The notes under the pieces: model-generated
Seen by the model: the letters and a program-made list of their open reading frames with translations, nothing else
The model's database searches: none
Told to the model about the DNA's origin: nothing
From: Hexactinellida sp. DTS-2022
Lineage: Eukaryota > Porifera > Hexactinellida
Direction of reading: 5' to 3'
Length of the DNA: 64,000 bases
NCBI GenBank assembly: GCA_028753945.1
Contig: JAPNXP010000002.1
Coordinates: forward strand, 8,308,001 to 8,372,000
Program-made: the position numbers and the translations under genes
Part shown: positions 11,471 to 59,455 of the stretch, piece by piece
Layout: every line of letters begins with the position of its first letter
How positions within the stretch are numbered: the first letter of the stretch is position 1

Positions 11471-11654
11471 CTCGGTACTTCAATAATAAGCATTAACGCT
11501 ACCTACGACTACTATTTTCCCATTTTTCCAGAAAAAAAAATCTTTTGTTCTAAAGTTAACTTTTTGTTTATAGACACCTCTGCCAATTCCTATGAAACTG
11601 GCAAAATCAGATTTATCATATTTGAATTTTTTGGCCACATAACTAGTCATAAAC

Positions 11655-12546
11655 TCCAACCAGTGGGCTGGTTATTGTACAGAACAGGGGAAAGAGTCCT
11701 GAAGAAATACAGAAAGCTCTCTACGTCCTTGCCGATCACCTTGTTGAGAACCATGATAACTGTCCTCATACCAGAGATTCGTGGTGCTATATGGGGAAGA
11801 ATATTGCTGAAGTAAAGGATGACGACACAATTTCACCGGTGAATCTCCGGGTCCCATACCTCACGGCACCAGAACTGGCTCGCCTCTTGGATGTCTTTCA
11901 GAAGTTCGCGAGCATTGCTTTATGTTCCGCCGTAACCCTTGGCAAGACGCAGAACGCGAATGAATCTCTGCACTCCGTCCTATGGCATAACGCGCCGAAA
12001 ATCAAGCGTGTCGGCCAGAAGTCCCTCCAAGCCTCAGCAGCGCTGGCGGTCACCACTTTCAACGAGGGCTCTATGTCTCTGGCTAGCGTGCTTACCAACT
12101 TAGGAGTAGCCTGTTCACATAAGACCTTGCTCTATTTCGCGAGAAAGGACAAAGAACGCAACCGGTGTCGTATCAAAGCTGTCTCTGAAACCCAGAAGAG
12201 GAGACGAAGGTTACTCCAGTCCCAGTTTCTGACCGCAGAATCTTCCAGACGCAGGCGGGAAAAGGCTGGGGCAAAGTATAAGTCCAAAGCCTTTGGTAGT
12301 GAAGCTTCATCGAGTACCCCTGCGAAGAAAGCCGTTGCAAAAGCGTCCACTGGTGACGGATCAGACACCGTTTGCGAAGAGTGCCAGTTGCGAAATTGTC
12401 CGATCGGAAGAAAGCGGAAGACCGATGACTGGGTGTTTTGCGAATTCTGCGACCAGTGGTATCACGCTAGGTGCATGAAAGTGACCCTGAAGGAAGTAGG
12501 AGATGAACCATTCCAGTGTTTCGACTGTGAAGAGCAAGATCCTTAG
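11655..12546 (+). CDS. Mutator-like transposase C-terminal region with PHD-like zinc finger
   Basis: One open frame runs from just after a stop near 11655 to TAG at 12546. The first Met (11791) is internal, because upstream codons read KALYVLADHLVENHDNCPHT and DSWCYM, a Cys/Trp block typical of Mutator-like transposase proteins of animals. A likely exon start is after TTATTGTACAG (about 11684). Next come TQNANESLHSVLWHNAPK, the conserved QN.NES..S..W motif, a basic helical stretch (KRRRRLLQ, RRRREKAG), and a terminal zinc finger with CEEC, WVFCEFCDQWYHARC and FQCFDC spacing like a PHD finger. The frame is intact and visibly richer in GC than its neighbours. It may be a young insertion or a retained, domesticated copy. 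The N-terminus and catalytic residues are not in this exon. Confidence 0.7.
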
Positions 12547-48824: not shown

Positions 48825-50300
48825 TTTGCTCTATAACTATGTAGTAAATATCCATAATATTAGAAGTTGCCAATTATCGACGATTTACAATCTAGAATTA
48901 ATTTTTCGAATTGTAACCTCAATTATGAATTGTTCCTTACTCTATTTAGCGACGTCTGGCCATGAACGAATTTTGATTTTGGACTTAAAATTTTATATAT
49001 TTTATTTTTAGAAATTAATTTGTAATACAGGTATTTAAAAAAATTATTGCTTTATAAAACTTATTTAAAAAACAAAATCTGTCATCGCCAGACGCTAGTA
49101 AATGTTCTCATACGCCTTTTTCACAATGTATGTCCTCTTCAAAAAAAATTAGTTATCTTGTACCGTTATTAATGAAAATTCATGAAAAAGTGGATAAAAT
49201 TTTATTTACTTTTTTAGTTTGTTTTTCAATAAATTCATATAATCAAATACAATGAACTTTTGCACAGGAATTATTTTTAACTTTATCATTATAAAAAAAA
49301 ATTAATATATTTTTTCCCAAAAAGTGACCTCAAAGGTGATTTTTGGGATTTTTTTTTAGATATGTAAACTTGGTATATTTTCGCACTATATTTATCAATA
49401 ATAATAAATTTTCAATTCCCCACTTTTGCAACGATGATCGCTAAGTGTCCCCCTTGAGATCCATAAATCACTTCAACTAAGACTTTGACCTTTATGGGCA
49501 TAAAATGTGCCAATTTCTGATGACCAAGCAAAAAGCACATCTCCTGAACCTTTGAGTCTAGAGCTTAGCAACAAAATCCTAGTCACATCTTTACATCAAA
49601 TAAAAATCATTGAAATCACACTTTAGCTCTGAAAATATTTTGTAGGTCATTCTATATAATTTATACTCCCATATATGGTAATGGAAGGTGCATTAAAACA
49701 ATAACTAAGCATAAAATTCACCTATTAGAACAGAACAGCTAGAACATATCCCTAAGTTCCTAATAGGTTTTAAAATCAAATTTATATGCAATGGATCATA
49801 TAGCATAGTTTGGTAATGCAAATCAGTACGATAAATAAGTTAATATTCTGTTCAAATGGTCATAAATCCATTTATTACTTTCCAGCATTCCTCACTATTT
49901 CAAAATATTTTCCTGAAAAGAAAAACAACAATATCATTCTGAAAATTTCAAAGCATGTTCACCATATCTATACCCTAAATAAACATATTTTTAATTATTG
50001 ATTAACAGCTCAAAAATCATTCTGTAACTTCCTTTTGACGAAAAATGATCAAAAACATATAAAAATATATGATTCCTGGTCCAATATTGCCAGAAAAATA
50101 GTTTTAGTTGTTATCAGCCCTAAATGCATACTAAACTATAAGTCTATACATGTTACGATATGCCTATATGCTTTTCACTCATCTATTTAGATATCAAAGT
50201 CATGAAAATATTTTAGCGTAGTATTATTTCTGATAGAAGGTAAATTTAGTATTTCAAAAAATCTAGACAAATGAAAAGTGATAAATGCAATTTAATAGGC
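48825..50300. other. No gene seen
   Basis: Very AT-rich, with short frames only and none that look conserved. A CCATATATGG palindrome is at 49669. Confidence 0.5.
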
Positions 50301-50304
50301 TTAA

Positions 50305-50575
50305 GGTTAAATTATGCAGATTCAGCTAAAAAAACACATGAATTTAGTTTTGAAGGTGGGATTTTGAATTTCACATATATGATGGAAGACATTTTAGCTA
50401 GATTCAAACTGAAAACGAAATCAAATTATCTTCTATATCCTCGATTTTATGGGGCGTGCAGTTTTATGCTAATACAAAAGTCCCATAGGGGGATTTCTTC
50501 ATACTCCACCTGATATGTGTGTGGATTTCAAGATCGTTATTTGCTAAAGACCTATGCTGTGTGATCTATCAGATA
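50305..50575 (+). mobile_element. TTAA element family T2, left fragment
   Basis: TTAA at 50301-50304, then GGTTAAATTATGCAGATTCA. It follows the left 270 bp of T2 to GTGATCTATCAGATA and is then replaced by the repeat at 50576-50733, also found at 14280-14427. Confidence 0.75.
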
Positions 50576-51432
50576 CGCTGGTTCCGCCTTTGTATCGACC
50601 AAAGTTAGAAATGTTCAAATTTTTACAATATTTTGCAGACATAGCGGAAGGATGGTATCTTTCGATGGGATTTGGGTTTTCATCCTTCCGATCATTATTT
50701 CCAGAGTTATGACCGTTTTAGTAGCGGCATTTAATATTAAAACTCCGTTTTATTACTCCGAAGGTGTTGCCCACGTTAAAATAACTATTTATTGTATTTA
50801 CAACGTTTCAATATTCATACATATGATAGTCTGACGAAAGTTTTGCACAACTCAACAATGTTTTTGTGTAAAAGTGGAAATTGCAGAAGTTTTATCCCTG
50901 CGGCGGTCTTAATGAATTGTGATAGTTTAATGACAGTCTATTTTGTGGTTTCCTAAACATCATGATTTCACCTCTAATTGGTTCTAAATATAGAATTTCG
51001 TAAGTTACAAAGTAGTTTCTATAGTACAATAATTATAGCTATATTTGAATCTACTTGAAGTGTACTTAATATTATTTGTTTACAATGTTGATAAATCTAT
51101 ATATTTTACTAACTTTTAAACTTGATTTCATCGGTTTCAAAATATATATTTAGTCCCCCGATCTGTGGGTATATACATTAGCATCTTTTAGGACCAATCA
51201 CAACCACCTTAGTGACCTTATAGATGTGGATGGGTAGAGATTTATCTAAGTTTTTTGCATCTTCCCTTATTCCCGCGAGTTATCGAAAATAAATTATGGT
51301 TAAGTCTGGACACCTTTTTAGCAATTTCAATGAAATTCAAAAAGTTATTTCATGGAATTTCTTTAAAAAGTTTTATCGTAACATTACTAAATTATAAATA
51401 TGTACTCTACTTTTGTATATTATAGAATTAAA
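50576..51432. other. Dispersed repeat, then upstream region of the Transib gene
   Basis: 50576-50733 is the second copy of the 14280-14427 repeat. Beyond it no frame or terminal repeat is evident. I searched for a CAC(A/T)(A/G)TGG-type Transib end upstream of the transposase and did not find one. Confidence 0.45.
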
Positions 51433-53619
51433 ATGAATAACCAAGAAGCTGCAGCCTATCTTTTTAAACATGAGAAACCCACTGTTGCTGCTCGTATGTA
51501 TTTAGAATTATTTGAGTTAGACGGGAACTATTTCAATGTCCTGAAGAACAAGTTTAATCGATTAAAATTGAATCGTCAAACTTGCCTTAGAAACAATACG
51601 CTCTCTGTCTGGGAAGGTGAGTTATTTTACACACATCCTTCAGAAGATAATCCTACAGTGCATGAATTGGGAAATCTATGTCCACTCTGCAGTAATGAAC
51701 TAGAATTCACGTGTCTTAAGTGCAGAAAAGATATATTTGTAGAAGAACATACCAATACCAGGAAGAAATTTTCAGAATTGTCCTTAGAATCTCAACGAAG
51801 TAGATTTACTGAATTATTAGAACATATTACATTTGTTGCAGATCGTGGAGAACTAAGTGATCAAGAAGTTGCAAGTTATGCTCTTAAATTCATTTCAAAT
51901 GCTAGCCATTATAGAAAAGTTTCTAAAGTTTGTACAAACATAATCGACACAGGTACATTTGCACTAGCTGAAAGACAAATTCCGCTTGAAAAGTCCGCTT
52001 TTCTATTGGACATTTTAGAAATTGGAAAACCAAAGTACACAACTCTAAGACAACTTTGCAAACCAGAAGGAGTTTTATTCCCATCCTATGACAAAATCTC
52101 AATATTTCGTTCTAAAATTGCACTATCCACACAAATTCAAACTATCAATAGAGAAGCTAGTCCTATAGGTGTAGGTTATACTTATTCTACTATCGTTCAG
52201 TACACCTTTGAAAGTTTATTAGAAACGATCAATGTTAAATGTTCAGAATATCCAATATCCTTTGAGATAGCCGATGGCCTCGATGGATCAGGCAGTCACA
52301 AGATTTACAATCAGTTATCTCGGGACCCAAATTTTTCTACTAAAAGCTTCTTATTATACGCTTTCAAGCCTCTAACCATTAAAGACAAAAATATGAACAT
52401 TGTATGGAAAAACAAACACCCTAATTCTCCTTTTGCGACACGTCCAGTGTTATTACTTGCCATTAAAGAAAACCAAAAAAACGTTGATTTCATAATGAAC
52501 TTATTTATCAATCCTCCTAACCTTTGATATGGAACAAAATGGTCTTAATTTATCGGATGGTGTATGTAATGTCAAAGTCTTTCGAACCATGTTTGATGGT
52601 AAATGTCAAAAATTCTAAGTGGAGCTGGGGGTGCTAGTTGCCAGATGTGCACCGTAACTCACAAGGAAATGAAGGAAATCAAATTGATTAGTCCGGGTTT
52701 CCAATCAATCGGCATATTCATGATGCAATTTCTATCTTTAACGACGTAAATATTGATGAATACCTTAAACTTGACTCAGACACAAGATATGGATTAACTC
52801 ACCCACCGTCATCGAAAATTGATATAATTCCTGCTTCTCCATTGCGCTGCTACTTTTTTCGCTGGTTCATGTTACTGATTTACCACCTAGATGCAGGAAA
52901 AAAGCACTGGGCACCAACTTCACCACCTATCCAAGCATCCATGAAACGCATGAGATCATAGATCTTAGAACATACTGGTTTCCACATCGATATCCCTTCA
53001 TGTGATGGTGGCACTTCAACAACCGGTAACATAGCCAGAGACTGCTTCTTAAACAAGAAAGATTTCCTGAAATGGGCAACATCCACAATTAACGAAGTAG
53101 AAACTGAATGGGTTGAGATCATACACCAAAATTTATCCGTCATTATGAGGGTTTATAACAGTAGCCACAAAATCGATACAAATAAATTTAGTCAAATTGC
53201 CAAGACAACTTACGAATTCATAGTAACGAAATTCACTTGGGCAAACATTACACCATCTTTACACAAATTGTTGGCATTCGGGTGAAGTAATCGATGTTTA
53301 CAACAACGGATTCGGAGTTAAGAATTTCTCTGAAGAAAGTCTTGAAGCTTTGAACAAATACGTGAGGAAATTTAGGGAACAGTTGTCTCGAAAGATCAGC
53401 TTTGAGTTAAATGTTCATGACATAATGGTCAGGTTGACAACTCAGAGCGACCCAGTGTTAACCCAGTTTAGAAAGTATTCCACTAACCAATCAAATCTAG
53501 AAATTGATTTTGAAAATTTGTCAGCTCAAGATAAACTCGTTACCTCATTATTATTATGTGTTACAGACAATCTTCAAGGTGGTTTGGATTGCAGGTCAGA
53601 GAAATTAATAAGGCAATAA
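51433..53619 (+). pseudogene. Transib/RAG1-like transposase, first half open, second half frameshifted
   Basis: A 364-codon frame from ATG 51433 (an in-frame ATG at 51400 is also possible) to TGA at 52527 carries CPLC and CLKC zinc-binding pairs (residues 83-97), then DGLDGSG at 281-287, matching the RAG1/Transib block with the first catalytic Asp, and KNKHPNSPFATRPVLLLAIK, matching PNSELCCKPLCLMLADE of RAG1. After the stop, other frames continue the family in order: GAGGASCQMC at 52621 (RAG1/Transib zinc block), GGTSTTGNIARDCF near 53010, FTWANITPSLHKLLAFG near 53240, and SEESLEALNKYVRKFREQLS at 53320-53390, where the last catalytic Glu is expected. The C-terminal frame ends at 53619. At least three breaks, so it is inactive as it stands. 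Transib is the source superfamily of vertebrate RAG1; no RAG2-like (kelch) frame was seen nearby. Confidence 0.8.
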
Positions 53620-54231
53620 ATTTTGAATTTTTTTCCCATTTTATTCTGCTTTGAATAACGAAAACAATGTTAACAATAAATCATATTTATATTTATTAAA
53701 GTGTTTTATCGATAACCTATCACTTCATAATGCATTTGTAGGGTCTAGCTCTTTACCTGAACCACATTATAAATAAAAAATGAACTGTGTTCAATTTTGT
53801 GACGTCATATCTCACTTGAATGAAGCCATACAAATAATCGCTTAATACCATTTGATTCCTTTGGTTGGATAAGCTATTAGATGATAATACATTTCCTGTG
53901 TATATCTGGTCTATAAATGCCTATTCGTTGTAAATTGCTATTTTCGGCCACTGTGGAGTCTAGTCAGGGAATTATATACGTCGATACATATATACTAGTC
54001 GGATAACCAGTCTACGCCGTGGGGTAATTCAAGTTTGGTGTCATAGGAACAATCAATTAAAGTTGATTTCACAGAAGTTTTAGTATCTGATTATGAACAA
54101 AGTTCACTTAAGAGCTAACGGTATATGTCTTTGTTATAGTGGCCTGTGTATTTGCCTCTAGTTTAAGAGCCCAGAGGTGTAAGTATATAGAAATATTGGA
54201 AAGCAAAGCTCGTTAAATTGTGTTACGTATG
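53620..54231. other. No gene seen
   Basis: AT-rich 3' flank of the transposase. CACTGTGG occurs at 53949 and resembles a Transib end, but its orientation is that of a left end and no partner was found. Confidence 0.4.
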
Positions 54232-54500
54232 CCCCCAGTCAGGCCCTACGAGAGGGGGGGGGGCAGACGGGTCGGTGCCCTGGGGCCCAGGGCTAAATAG
54301 GGGGCCCAGGGCTAGAGAAGGGGCAGGGCTAGATATGGACCTCGTGGCCTAGGGAGGCCCAAGATCTGGGTCATTAATGTCCTAAGTCCATGTATTTGAT
54401 TATTATTGTTTCTGACTAGACCTATATTTTGCATAGTGGCGTGAAATTCGAAATTTAAATGTATTAATATCTTTTGTCATTATTCTAGTTCTTCACTTAA

Positions 54501-54656
54501 GGTTCAGGTATACTATACAAAATCCCAAATTTCGATAAAATCCCAAACTATTGTTAATCTCGTTTTTATTGCATTTTCAAATTGTGTGGATACCCTTGTG
54601 GACTCTCACGAAATTTCTAAGAAGAATTCCAATTATTTCTCCAGTTTGACATTTGC
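54501..54656 (+). mobile_element. TTAA element family T1, left-end fragment
   Basis: After TTAA (54497-54500), GGTTCAGGTATACTATAC and about 150 bp match the left end of copies B and C, up to CCAGTTTGAC. It is cut off at the TTAA of copy E. Confidence 0.75.
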
Positions 54657-54660
54657 TTAA

Positions 54661-55351
54661 GGTTCAGGTATCCTCTAGAGTACTTCTAACATAAGTATTT
54701 ACCCGAATGAATTAATTTTTTTACAGCGAATTTACTTCATCCTCAGGATGCCAAAAAGACAATAATATAGGCAAATAAACTAATAGAGGTAAAATCTTTT
54801 TTTAAATTTTACCATTTTTGCGGAATAGATCAATCAGAAAAGATAAACAATACCAAGAATATTATTGATAAAATGTGTTTAGCTGGATGTAATATAACTT
54901 TTGAGTACAGGAATTGTGAATATCTACATTTTTCTGGATTTCAAATACTTTTATGTGATGTTCAAATAAAGATTTTCCTTATCCAAAATCCAAAAAACAG
55001 ATGAACTATTCATATTGGGTAATTCGCAGCACTGAAAAGTTGTATCTTTACGAGATCTCTCCGAAACCGTTGAGTTTTTGATTATACGACCAAAATTGAC
55101 AAAATGACTTCTTCCGCAATTCTGAAAATGTTAGTTTTGAGATAGCGGCTTTTGAAAAAAAAATTTACAGCAATTATTCCTAAATTGAGGTGACCAAAGT
55201 GTGTCAAACTGGAAAAATAATACGAATCTTTCTTAGAAATCTCTTGAGAGTACTCATTGGTGTCAATACAATCCCAAATGCAATAAAAGAGAAATAGACA
55301 ATGATTTGGATTTTATCTAAATATTCGAAATTTGTAGAGTATACCTGAACC
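54661..55351 (-). mobile_element. TTAA element family T1, type 2, copy E (691 bp)
   Basis: TTAA at 54657-54660 and 55352-55355. Ends GGTTCAGGTATCCTCTA and, on the other strand, GGTTCAGGTATACTCTA. Reverse complement of copy D without the hAT insertion. It shows the empty site of that insertion. Confidence 0.8.
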
Positions 55352-55864
55352 TTAATGCTAGTCAATTAGTAAGGGGCCCAGAATTACTCTGCCCCGAGGC
55401 AAATAATTTCTCTCGGCGGCCCTGCCCCCAGTAACGCACCACGAATATGCTAAGAAGATGCAAGGCATAAAATCAAAAGACGCACATGTTTGTTTGATCA
55501 GTAGCGGTCCCAGGGAGGGAGAGCCCCCGGATCTAAAACATCAGTAAATATTCTTCCCCGGCACCTATCCTAGGGTGATAGTATAATTGAAAGGAACACG
55601 TGGAGCCATACTAACGCCCCTCCCCTAAAGCTGGCTGGCCAGATTCTATAACCGACAATTGAATTGATATCAATTCATCAAAGATTTGAAAATAAAAATG
55701 AAAAGTAACCAACAATTATAAAATCTATCAATAAAGGGCAACTTGCAGACCTTAACGTCCGCACTAAGGAGGTATTATTAACAATTCCGAACCTCTGCAC
55801 CTTTATCACACTACATACAAAAAATGACCAATTAAATAACACATCGAAAATAACAAATAGTAAA

Positions 55865-56503
55865 TTAAACGTTAGAGGAATCCAAATACTTAAGTAAATA
55901 TTCCGGGTAAACGCGATCATTGCAGTATATGGCAAGCGTTTTATAACCAGATGGTTGATTCCCAGACTGGCTGTCGAATCTCGCAGTGGATACACCTGTA
56001 CCTAAACACTGAATATATGGGGGAACAATCAATGAACGGTCACAAGGCAGATTAACTACATTACTTGTTATGACTCTAACCTGTAGAATACATTTTAGGT
56101 TGGTCCTTCTTGGTAAAGAGAATGAGTACGAATTGCTAAGTCGCACATCATAAGAAAAATAGAGTGCACGCCTCCATAGACCCGAATTTGCATAGCGATA
56201 ATCGATCCCATCAGTAGAGGAGACATTTTTATCTGGATTCATATCTCCAGTACCATAGAACAAGGTCTCTTCATTCGGCTCCTCATCTCGAGCTAGAAAT
56301 CGTTGGTATAATTGGTGGTAATTAAACCAGAGAATCTTGTTCTGAATGCGTTCCACGGTTATTAAGATCATTAGCCTCCGTTTGAATGACTGCTGTACGC
56401 TTGCAAACTCAGCTGTACCTGGATCAACAGTTTCCAACAACACATCACCCTCAAATTTTGTCCATAAAAATGGGTATTTAGGAATACACACACTTTCCAC
56501 AAA
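55865..56503 (-). CDS. PARP catalytic domain (PARP14/PARP11-like), last exon
   Basis: Minus strand. TTCTGTGCTCTTCTAG, a strong acceptor, ends at 56504 and the frame starts at 56503 (no ATG; the first codons are TTT GTG), so this is a 3' exon of 212 codons ending in TAA at 55865-55867. It reads ITVERIQNKILWFNYHQLY, ETLFYGTGDMNPD, ALYFSYDVRLSNSY, SLIVPPY, and RVYPEYLLKY. This is the fold order of PARP14/PARP11-type mono-ADP-ribosyltransferases. Numbering from the GTG at 56500, the NAD-site triad His-Tyr-Glu is Tyr82-Tyr114-Glu200: the usual His of LFHGT is Tyr, as in catalytically dead PARP13. The frame is intact, so it is probably a host gene or a recent copy. Upstream exons were not found. 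Confidence 0.75.
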   Translation of the reverse strand, partial: FVESVCIPKYPFLWTKFEGDVLLETVDPGTAEFASVQQSFKRRLMILITVERIQNKILWFNYHQLYQRFLARDEEPNEETLFYGTGDMNPDKNVSSTDGIDYRYANSGLWRRALYFSYDVRLSNSYSFSLPRRTNLKCILQVRVITSNVVNLPCDRSLIVPPYIQCLGTGVSTARFDSQSGNQPSGYKTLAIYCNDRVYPEYLLKYLDSSNV

Positions 56504-58654: not shown

Positions 58655-59450
58655 CTATTTAATTGTAGTATTACTATAGACTACATTTCTAATCCAAACT
58701 TCCCCAGATTTTGATTTGTGAGTTCCACATACCATTATTTTTAGTCCCAATGGATTTTTAACTCTACTCAATGCAACATAGAGTTTGCCATGACTAAAAA
58801 TGGCTTCAGGAGATGGCAGATATTGACCAACGGTATCCAAACTCTGACCTTGCCCTTTGTTAATTGTGATACAATAGGCTAGGCGGATTGGAAACTGCCT
58901 CCTTCTGAGAATAAATGGAAGTTCAGACTCAGAAGAAGTCAATATAATTCGTGGTATAAACACTCGCTTATGCTTGTTTGTACCAGTTGCGATCTCCGCG
59001 TCAATTACTCGGTTTGAGAATGCTCTAATAATCAACCGAGTACCATTACAAAGACCCTCATCGGGATCAAGGTTACGCAATAGAATTACATTCGCAAACA
59101 ATTTCAAAAATAGCCGATGAGGGGACATACCGTTAGGAGTGATGAAATTTAAAAACTCATTTGGAAAATTTACTGCAGCAGTACCTTCTACAGAATCTGC
59201 GCTCAACAGAGTTATACCATCACCAGGAAGCTGATGAATTACGTAATCGTTTATTAAATCAGCTGTATCATTTTTAGGACACAGAATAATTTTTTGACTT
59301 ACATAATCACGATCGGCATAATTTACATTTATATCACCATAGACTGAAGTAACCAAGTCTGTAATGGAATCACCTGGTACTACAAATTTGTTATCTATGT
59401 GAATCATTTGATTGTCATCCTCAGGTTCAGTTAGGGAAGTTTTTAAATCC
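58655..59450 (-). pseudogene. Helitron/PIF1-type helicase, C-terminal part
   Basis: Minus-strand frame of about 264 codons, open from near 59450 (KTSLTEPEDDNQ) through Met 59407 to the stop at 58655. It reads VVPGDSITDLVTSVYGD, LCNGTRLIIRAF, LPFILRRRQFPIRLAYCITI followed by NKGQGQSLDTVG (helicase motif V), and HGKLYVALSRVKNP (motif VI). These are the last motifs of superfamily-1 PIF1 helicases as found in Helitron RepHel proteins. The Walker A/B half and the Rep nuclease are missing. It ends head-to-head against the OTU frame at about 59453, which suggests a rearrangement breakpoint. Helitron origin is the best guess; a cellular PIF1 copy is the alternative. Confidence 0.75.
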
Positions 59451-59455
59451 TCTTC

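Follow-up and report, generated by a model that had tools for sequence, protein, structure and literature searches.

A broken, very probably RAG-like Transib copy in a hexactinellid sponge genome and its relatives with unequal two-part ends

Transib transposases are relatives of the enzyme that cuts antibody genes, and a broken transposase gene in a hexactinellid sponge raises the question of whether it belongs with ordinary insect-type Transib or closer to RAG1 and RAG1L, and of what ends its family carries. The window, the whole 64,000-nucleotide stretch analysed, corresponds to C11:8308001-8372000, and the genome searched comprised 112.4 Mb in 18 contigs; the GC content of the DNA here is 34-36%. 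Searches for Chitin_bind_4 and for let-7, run without positive controls, gave no match. The window very probably holds a dead copy of a cut-and-paste Transib-superfamily transposon that belongs to the RAG-like Subgroup I type, and its relatives carry one transposase and two-part short/long ends.

The broken copy in the window

The first-pass annotation had placed a Transib/RAG1-like transposase with an open first half at 51433-53619. A broken transposase does lie there, but the element is longer, from 50906 to 53955. Its features are given below with window coordinates, strand and the evidence for each.

50575-50905, no strand assigned: unrelated high-copy repeat, abutting the remnant where the left end should continue (copies elsewhere at 87-91%; the query ended at 50905)
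50906-53955, plus strand: Transib element remnant, left end missing and right end kept (sister-copy alignment, right terminal repeat)
51433-52527, plus strand: open first half of the transposase with the N-terminal domain, NBD-like region, first catalytic Asp block and PNS block (ORF, HzTransib match, family alignment)
CPLC from 51679 and CLKC from 51712, plus strand: Cys pairs (sequence)
51760-51987, plus strand: NBD-like region, approximate span, starting RKKFSELSLESQRSRF (aligned with the part of the family proteins that has a weak match to the RAG1 nonamer-binding domain)
52273-52293, plus strand: DGLDGSG, first catalytic Asp block (sequence; family members aligned with RAG1, BbRAG1L and HzTransib)
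52420-52470, plus strand: PNSPFATRPVLLLAIKE block, the PNS block (sequence, family alignment)
52589-52600, plus strand: MFDG, second catalytic Asp block, in another frame (sequence, family alignment)
52692-53619, plus strand: second half of the transposase over several frames, 52692-52961, 52962-53285 and 53227-53619 (blocks as in the intact relative)
53329-53346, plus strand: SEESLE, catalytic Glu block (sequence, family alignment)
53920-53955, minus strand: right terminal repeat, CACAGTGG, 21 bp, then GAATAGG, a long-spacer end (pattern match at C11:8361920-8361955)
53949-53955, minus strand: RSS-type heptamer CACAGTG at the right terminus; the next five bases are GAGTC (sequence)

In the ORF list, the open frame of this copy runs from 51391 to 52527, with its first ATG at 51433. 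DGLDGSG, the PNS block and the later-frame blocks are present in the order that had been described; the later frames carry MFDG, GGASCQMC, GNIARDCF, PSLHKLLAFG and SEESLEALNKYVRKFRE..SRKIS in succession, and the blocks match, in the same order, those of an intact 743-aa relative (L009, protein P0001). We take the Asp of DGLDGSG, the Asp of MFDG and the Glu of SEESLE to be equivalent to RAG1 residues D600, D708 and E962. Assignment to the Transib/RAG1 relationship was upheld: searched alone against solved structures up to E 10, the window frame gave one match, HzTransib (PDB 6pqn; E 0.0014), and the Pfam RAG1 model (PF12940) matches genome-wide. HzTransib matches both the window frame (E 0.0014) and the intact relative (E 1.1e-28), so the blocks are not due to chance. 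The AlphaFold model of the window frame alone had a mean pLDDT of 33. The Cys pairs, described earlier as zinc-binding, are seen in the window copy and L009 but are absent from the other ten rows of the 12-row family alignment, one of which is truncated there, and their only Pfam matches were non-significant (E 0.23 and 0.28).

A sister copy on the same contig (C11, 3706785 to 3709954) is 96.3% identical to the window copy over 2652 bp from 50906, the sister stretch used for this alignment having ended at the point matching 50906. Homology in the window starts about 126 bp inside the sister's left end, and the two right ends (the sister's at C11:3706785) are identical over 36 bp. The sister has AGTTA on both flanks, a 5-bp TSD. 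Because its transposase is broken across several frames the window copy is dead, and with the gene frameshifted and the left end gone it is no longer able to transpose.

Other features of the window were recorded alongside. Positions 50300-50905 hold two adjacent high-copy repeats of ~276 and 331 bp, with 87-94% identity among the copies listed. A palindromic stretch at 54497-55355, with imperfect inverted arms of 80 and 71 nt that are 75-80% complementary and an outer arm holding TTAAGGTTCAGGTA, looks like an unrelated non-autonomous transposon. On the minus strand, 58655-59455 encodes part of a Pif1-type helicase (Pif1_2B, E 2.7e-16) that may belong to a Helitron, and 55865-56503 gives a weak match to the PARP catalytic domain (E 2.4e-4, below the Pfam cut-off). 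A 297-aa ORF at 11653-12546 on the plus strand, ending in a PHD finger (E 3e-6), may come from another transposable element.

The sponge family and its placement

With high probability, the window element is part of a large Subgroup I-like Transib expansion. The window frame has at least 119 matches in its own genome, a figure that is not a copy count because some copies are split into two matches. Intact copies, which the first-pass annotation had suggested seeking, exist: 13 of these matches fall in frames of at least 700 aa without a stop. Twenty loci were fetched first, mostly picked for long frames, and 16 further loci later. Both ends were located in 16 of the first 20, which gave element lengths of 2.9-4.2 kb; each element has a single gene, and intact transposase frames have 711-757 codons. 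ORFs of at least 80 aa outside the transposase were found in 6 of these 16 delimited elements, none longer than 135 aa. In the family alignment, the proteins show 42-55% identity to P0001. Two loci, L010 and L011, are 99.86% identical over 3.66 kb and have different 5-bp duplications, which indicates recent mobility.

Many elements of ~0.97-1.3 kb, too short for the gene, lie on C1, C2, C7, C9 and other contigs (for example C1:2191915-2193051) and have CACAGTGG short/long ends like those of the coding copies. Locus L039 (C2:3227715-3229811; 754-2850 of the locus) encodes a divergent member with a 698-aa frame; its right end, at 3230203, has the long spacer, and the locus may represent a distinct deep lineage of Transib. 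Family-specific peptide patterns matched 55 and 243 places in viral contigs and prokaryote genomes, respectively, none of them confirmed as relatives. At the contig ends C11:15563090-15563329 and C18:6621300-6621539 (L036 and L037) the same repeated unit of ~200 bp is present, probably a subtelomeric satellite, and no simple telomere repeat was found in the four contig ends examined.

The sequence scores favoured Transib throughout. The intact relative P0001 scored 103 bits to HzTransib (E 1.1e-28), 25.7 to amphioxus RAG1L and at best 22.9 to RAG1, and the 12-row family profile scored 159 bits (E 1.2e-45), 73 and at most 60, respectively. HzTransib was the top reference for 20/20 family copies (38-105 bits; BbRAG1L, 6-47; mouse RAG1, 10-31), so the earlier suggestion that the protein lies closer to RAG1 or RAG1L than to insect Transib did not hold; BbRAG1L itself scored 229 bits to mouse RAG1 and 19 to HzTransib. 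The Pfam RAG1 model found 68 places genome-wide (best E 1.5e-6), 67 of them in the C-terminal catalytic part, between model positions 474 and 651; the other, C13:2658447-2658659, is a weak match to N-terminal positions 12-83 (E 0.05). In a separate Pfam search, the RAG1 model scored 25.2 bits against a cut-off of 25. In a tree of 17 family rows and three references, with long branches flagged, BbRAG1L and mouse RAG1 split from HzTransib and the family with 100/100 support, while the branching among L039, HzTransib and the remaining 16 rows stayed unresolved. The profile search and tree that had been proposed agree on relatedness to Transib/RAG1 and do not support a closer tie to RAG1L than to insect Transib; with three references, finer placement is beyond the reach of the tree. 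The PNS block had been singled out as a RAG1 feature, which the comparison contradicts: PNS is present in all 13 family rows compared, and HzTransib has PCS. At the next position, presumably that of RAG1 E649, RAG1 has E and BbRAG1L has V, HzTransib has P, and family members have P, S or H.

Subgroup I Transibs have asymmetric TIRs, keep α11-α12 of the zinc-binding domain and end in a CTT1 tail; Subgroup II Transibs have lost the α11-α12 segment and have a different tail, and it is the Subgroup I elements that were proposed as intermediates between Transib and RAG1L (PMC9435367). We took HzTransib as Subgroup II because this segment is missing from it and because of the order of the legend in PMC9435367. 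Between the second CxxC Cys (ZnC2) and the following, ZnH2-side His, 22/22 family copies have 65-69 residues; BbRAG1L has 60, mouse RAG1 64 and HzTransib 30. The RAG1-like spacing noted at first is therefore real in this stretch, but the scores favour HzTransib. With helices assigned by spacing, the α11-α12-like, RAG2-contact segment of ZnB appears to be kept in the family. The N-terminal third gave a weak match to the RAG1 nonamer-binding domain (3gna, E 0.011, family profile A1). A tail of the form Cx2Cx3GHx3-6C is present in 9/20 copies, with 3, 5 or 6 residues after GH and never 4, and some of the tail-less copies are truncated; the RAG1L form is Cx2Cx3GHx4C according to the available part of PMC7204232. 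These domain features fit a Subgroup I-like family rather than a plain insect-type Transib, and because only three reference proteins were used the placement rests on them and not on the tree.

Set beside Subgroup I as described for ctenophore, Hydra Transib-9 and bacterial elements (PMC9435367), the sponge family is alike in its single transposase, asymmetric TIRs, α11-α12-like segment and NBD-like region. It differs in having very many copies in one genome, and the CCGHC-type C-terminal tail of Subgroup I is found in only 9/20 of its copies. One to a few autonomous copies are given as typical in the portion of PMC4411706 available to us; many Transib copies in one genome are nevertheless not unique, a putatively active CMC-Transib having been reported from Hydra in the accessible text of PMC12220107.

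Two other placements were weighed. The family could be argued to be an ordinary insect-type Transib of Subgroup II, of no particular relevance to RAG, on the grounds that HzTransib is the best structural and best-scoring relative, has similar catalytic blocks and shares with most family members the P after PNS/PCS; some Subgroup II elements also have asymmetric ends (PMC9435367). HzTransib, however, has a ZnB segment ~35 residues shorter than that of the family (30 against 65-69), its PDB chain does not extend over the upstream NBD-like N-terminal region of the family, and some family copies have the CCGHC-like tail, which together make this placement very unlikely. A RAG1-like (RAGL) element whose RAG2L partner was lost or misplaced would share with the family the RAG2-contact segment, the CCGHC-like tail in 9/20 copies and asymmetric RSS-like ends, and L039 reaches 66 bits to BbRAG1L. 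Yet L039 scores 105 bits to HzTransib and 128-274 to the family, and all 20 copies score HzTransib above BbRAG1L and mouse RAG1. Used as a query on the host genome, BbRAG1L gave 99 matches; the best two (L039, the top match, and L040) are family members and many of the other 97 sit at known family positions. No RAG2-like kelch gene, as envisaged in the first-pass annotation, was found beside the copies, the host genome gave no RAG2 family match and a single sub-threshold match to the RAG2 PHD (E 0.80) in searches run without a positive control, and the 16 delimited elements contain no extra ORF above 135 aa. A RAGL (RAG1L-RAG2L) transposon was rejected on the scores, the tree split and the missing RAG2, and we regard an element of this kind that has lost its partner as highly improbable. 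The Subgroup I-like reading is retained below.

Two-part ends of unequal length

End pairs were compared in 21 non-redundant elements, near-duplicates (L011, L012, L015, L050, L053 and L060) having been dropped and loci without both ends left out (L013, L020, L022 and L024 of the first 20; L046, L047, L055, L056, L057 and L059 among the 16 later ones). In one pair, the left end is that of the sister and the right end that of the window copy. The CAC-type ends expected of a Transib/RAG1 relative are present: 40/42 ends start with CACAGTG, and the other two with CACATTG and CACAATG. An exact 5-bp TSD flanks 13/16 pairs from the first 20 loci, as it does the sister copy, and 7/10 pairs from the 16 further loci, where a TSD match helped to pick the pair and the ends of L049 were set separately. 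The terminal block common to both ends comprises 8-18 identical bases in 13/14 elements and 4 in L028.

Behind the terminal block, the best-preserved ends carry a GRAATAGG box that starts at base 19-20 on the left and base 29-30 on the right, giving spacers of 11-12 and 21-22 bp; in the left end of L009 the best match to the box is at base 11, not 19-20. The offset was recovered by a shift test that assumes no box sequence. In 19/21 elements, a 14-base stretch of the left end gave its best match to the element's own right end when shifted by 9 or 10, against a mean of 2.6 and a maximum of 8 in 2000 shuffles of the right ends; the exceptions were L026 and L028, and L023 tied with shift 0. Own partners match at 10.3/14 bases, compared with 7.2 for swapped partners (0/20,000 as high). 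The distal box is element-specific and common to both ends in 19/21 elements. A-rich stretches are also present, at about bases 29-34 of left ends and 11-16 of right ends; they were set aside as a nonamer, and the box was used as the distal signal, because they flank the box on opposite sides in the two ends.

Genome-wide, the pattern CACAGTGG-gap(0-30)-RAATAGG occurred at 573 sites, against 15 for the reversed pattern. Gaps were taken from 171 of the 573 (100, plus 71 via a narrower pattern), which lie on C1, on part of C2 and, for the GGC type, on C3-C11. Among these 171, the gap was 11-12 in 64, 19-22 in 102 and another length in 5, and 32/32 inward-facing neighbours less than 7 kb apart combined a short with a long spacer, differing by 9 (20 pairs), 10 (11) or 8 bp (1). 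Nineteen of the 32 pairs span 1.14-1.17 kb, which is not enough to hold the gene. This pairing is consistent with a short/long rule and is not proof of one, because common descent alone could yield short + long pairs.

Similar architectures are known. The 12/23 RSS has the exact heptamer CACAGTG, as here, and spacers of 12/23 against 11-12/21-22, in both cases about one turn apart, and the 9-10 bp offset of the family is close to its 11 bp; its distal motif is ACAAAAACC in place of the GRAATAGG-like box, and many family left ends have an A-tract after the box (RSS details from the available part of PMC8289069). ProtoRAG of amphioxus also combines a terminal and a distal block with asymmetric spacers but has 27/31-bp spacers, a CACTATG start and RAG2L, according to the same partial source. 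AanRAGL of Aureococcus has two-part asymmetric ends with 4/13-bp spacers, a 9-bp difference against 9-10 here, and a 5-bp TSD; unlike the sponge family, it carries RAG2L and a CACACCC... terminus (PMC9435367). For Transib5 of Drosophila and Transib2/N1-N3 of Anopheles, 12/23-like asymmetric TIRs are reported in the accessible part of PMC8355894, in few elements and with the asymmetry defined by a nonamer-like motif. Asymmetric Transib ends and RAG-like Transib proteins have thus both been described before (PMC9435367; PMC8355894, available text). In the text of mainly open-access literature, we found no earlier account of a family-wide exact heptamer, an element-specific shared box or box-NBD covariation.

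End recognition and the spacer rule

Which part of the transposase might read which part of the end was explored by covariation across the 21 elements, with partial Mantel tests that are exploratory, uncorrected for shared ancestry and optimistic for related sequences. Box distance followed the NBD given the core (r 0.29, p 0.013), with a lower value for the core given the NBD (r 0.15, p 0.086). Terminal-block distance followed the core given the NBD (r 0.40, p 0.0002) and not the NBD given the core (r -0.10, p 0.89). An 11-element set was similar (box against NBD given core, r 0.28, p 0.038). In 17 sliding 80-aa windows, uncorrected, the best box signal fell at residues 121-200, the NBD window (r 0.37), and the terminal-block signal peaked at 201-360. 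Box covariation is not exclusive to the NBD, because windows at 321-480 also reach r 0.30.

These patterns suggest a model in which a transposase dimer would grip both ends, the catalytic core reading the terminal block and the NBD-like region the distal box, and in which the difference of about one helical turn would ensure that left ends join right ends. On the precedent of RAG and Transib, the enzyme would nick at the heptamer border, the flanks would be closed as hairpins, and the freed element would be inserted with a 5-bp duplication. We put forward only tentatively, as a possibility rather than an expectation, that RAG2-less Transibs obey a one-turn/two-turn pairing in which the NBD reads the box and a pair needs one 11-12-bp and one 21-22-bp end behind the RSS heptamer. 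The short/long asymmetry may instead be functionless, inherited from one ancestral element, and by descent all pairs would indeed look alike; this is unlikely in our judgement, as the 9-10 bp offset is kept among widely differing proteins (42-55% identity to P0001) and within each element the boxes of the two ends change in concert.

The sponge genome holds many diverged elements, some of them recently moved, with an exact RSS heptamer and a steady short/long asymmetry. As a natural variation series, the family can be used to match parts of the end to the transposase domains that read them, and to ask how the 12/23 rule arose and whether spacers must be unequal when RAG2 is absent. If the pairing proposed here is true, the V(D)J spacer rule, like the split of tasks between core and NBD, would be older than RAG2 and survive among natural variants.
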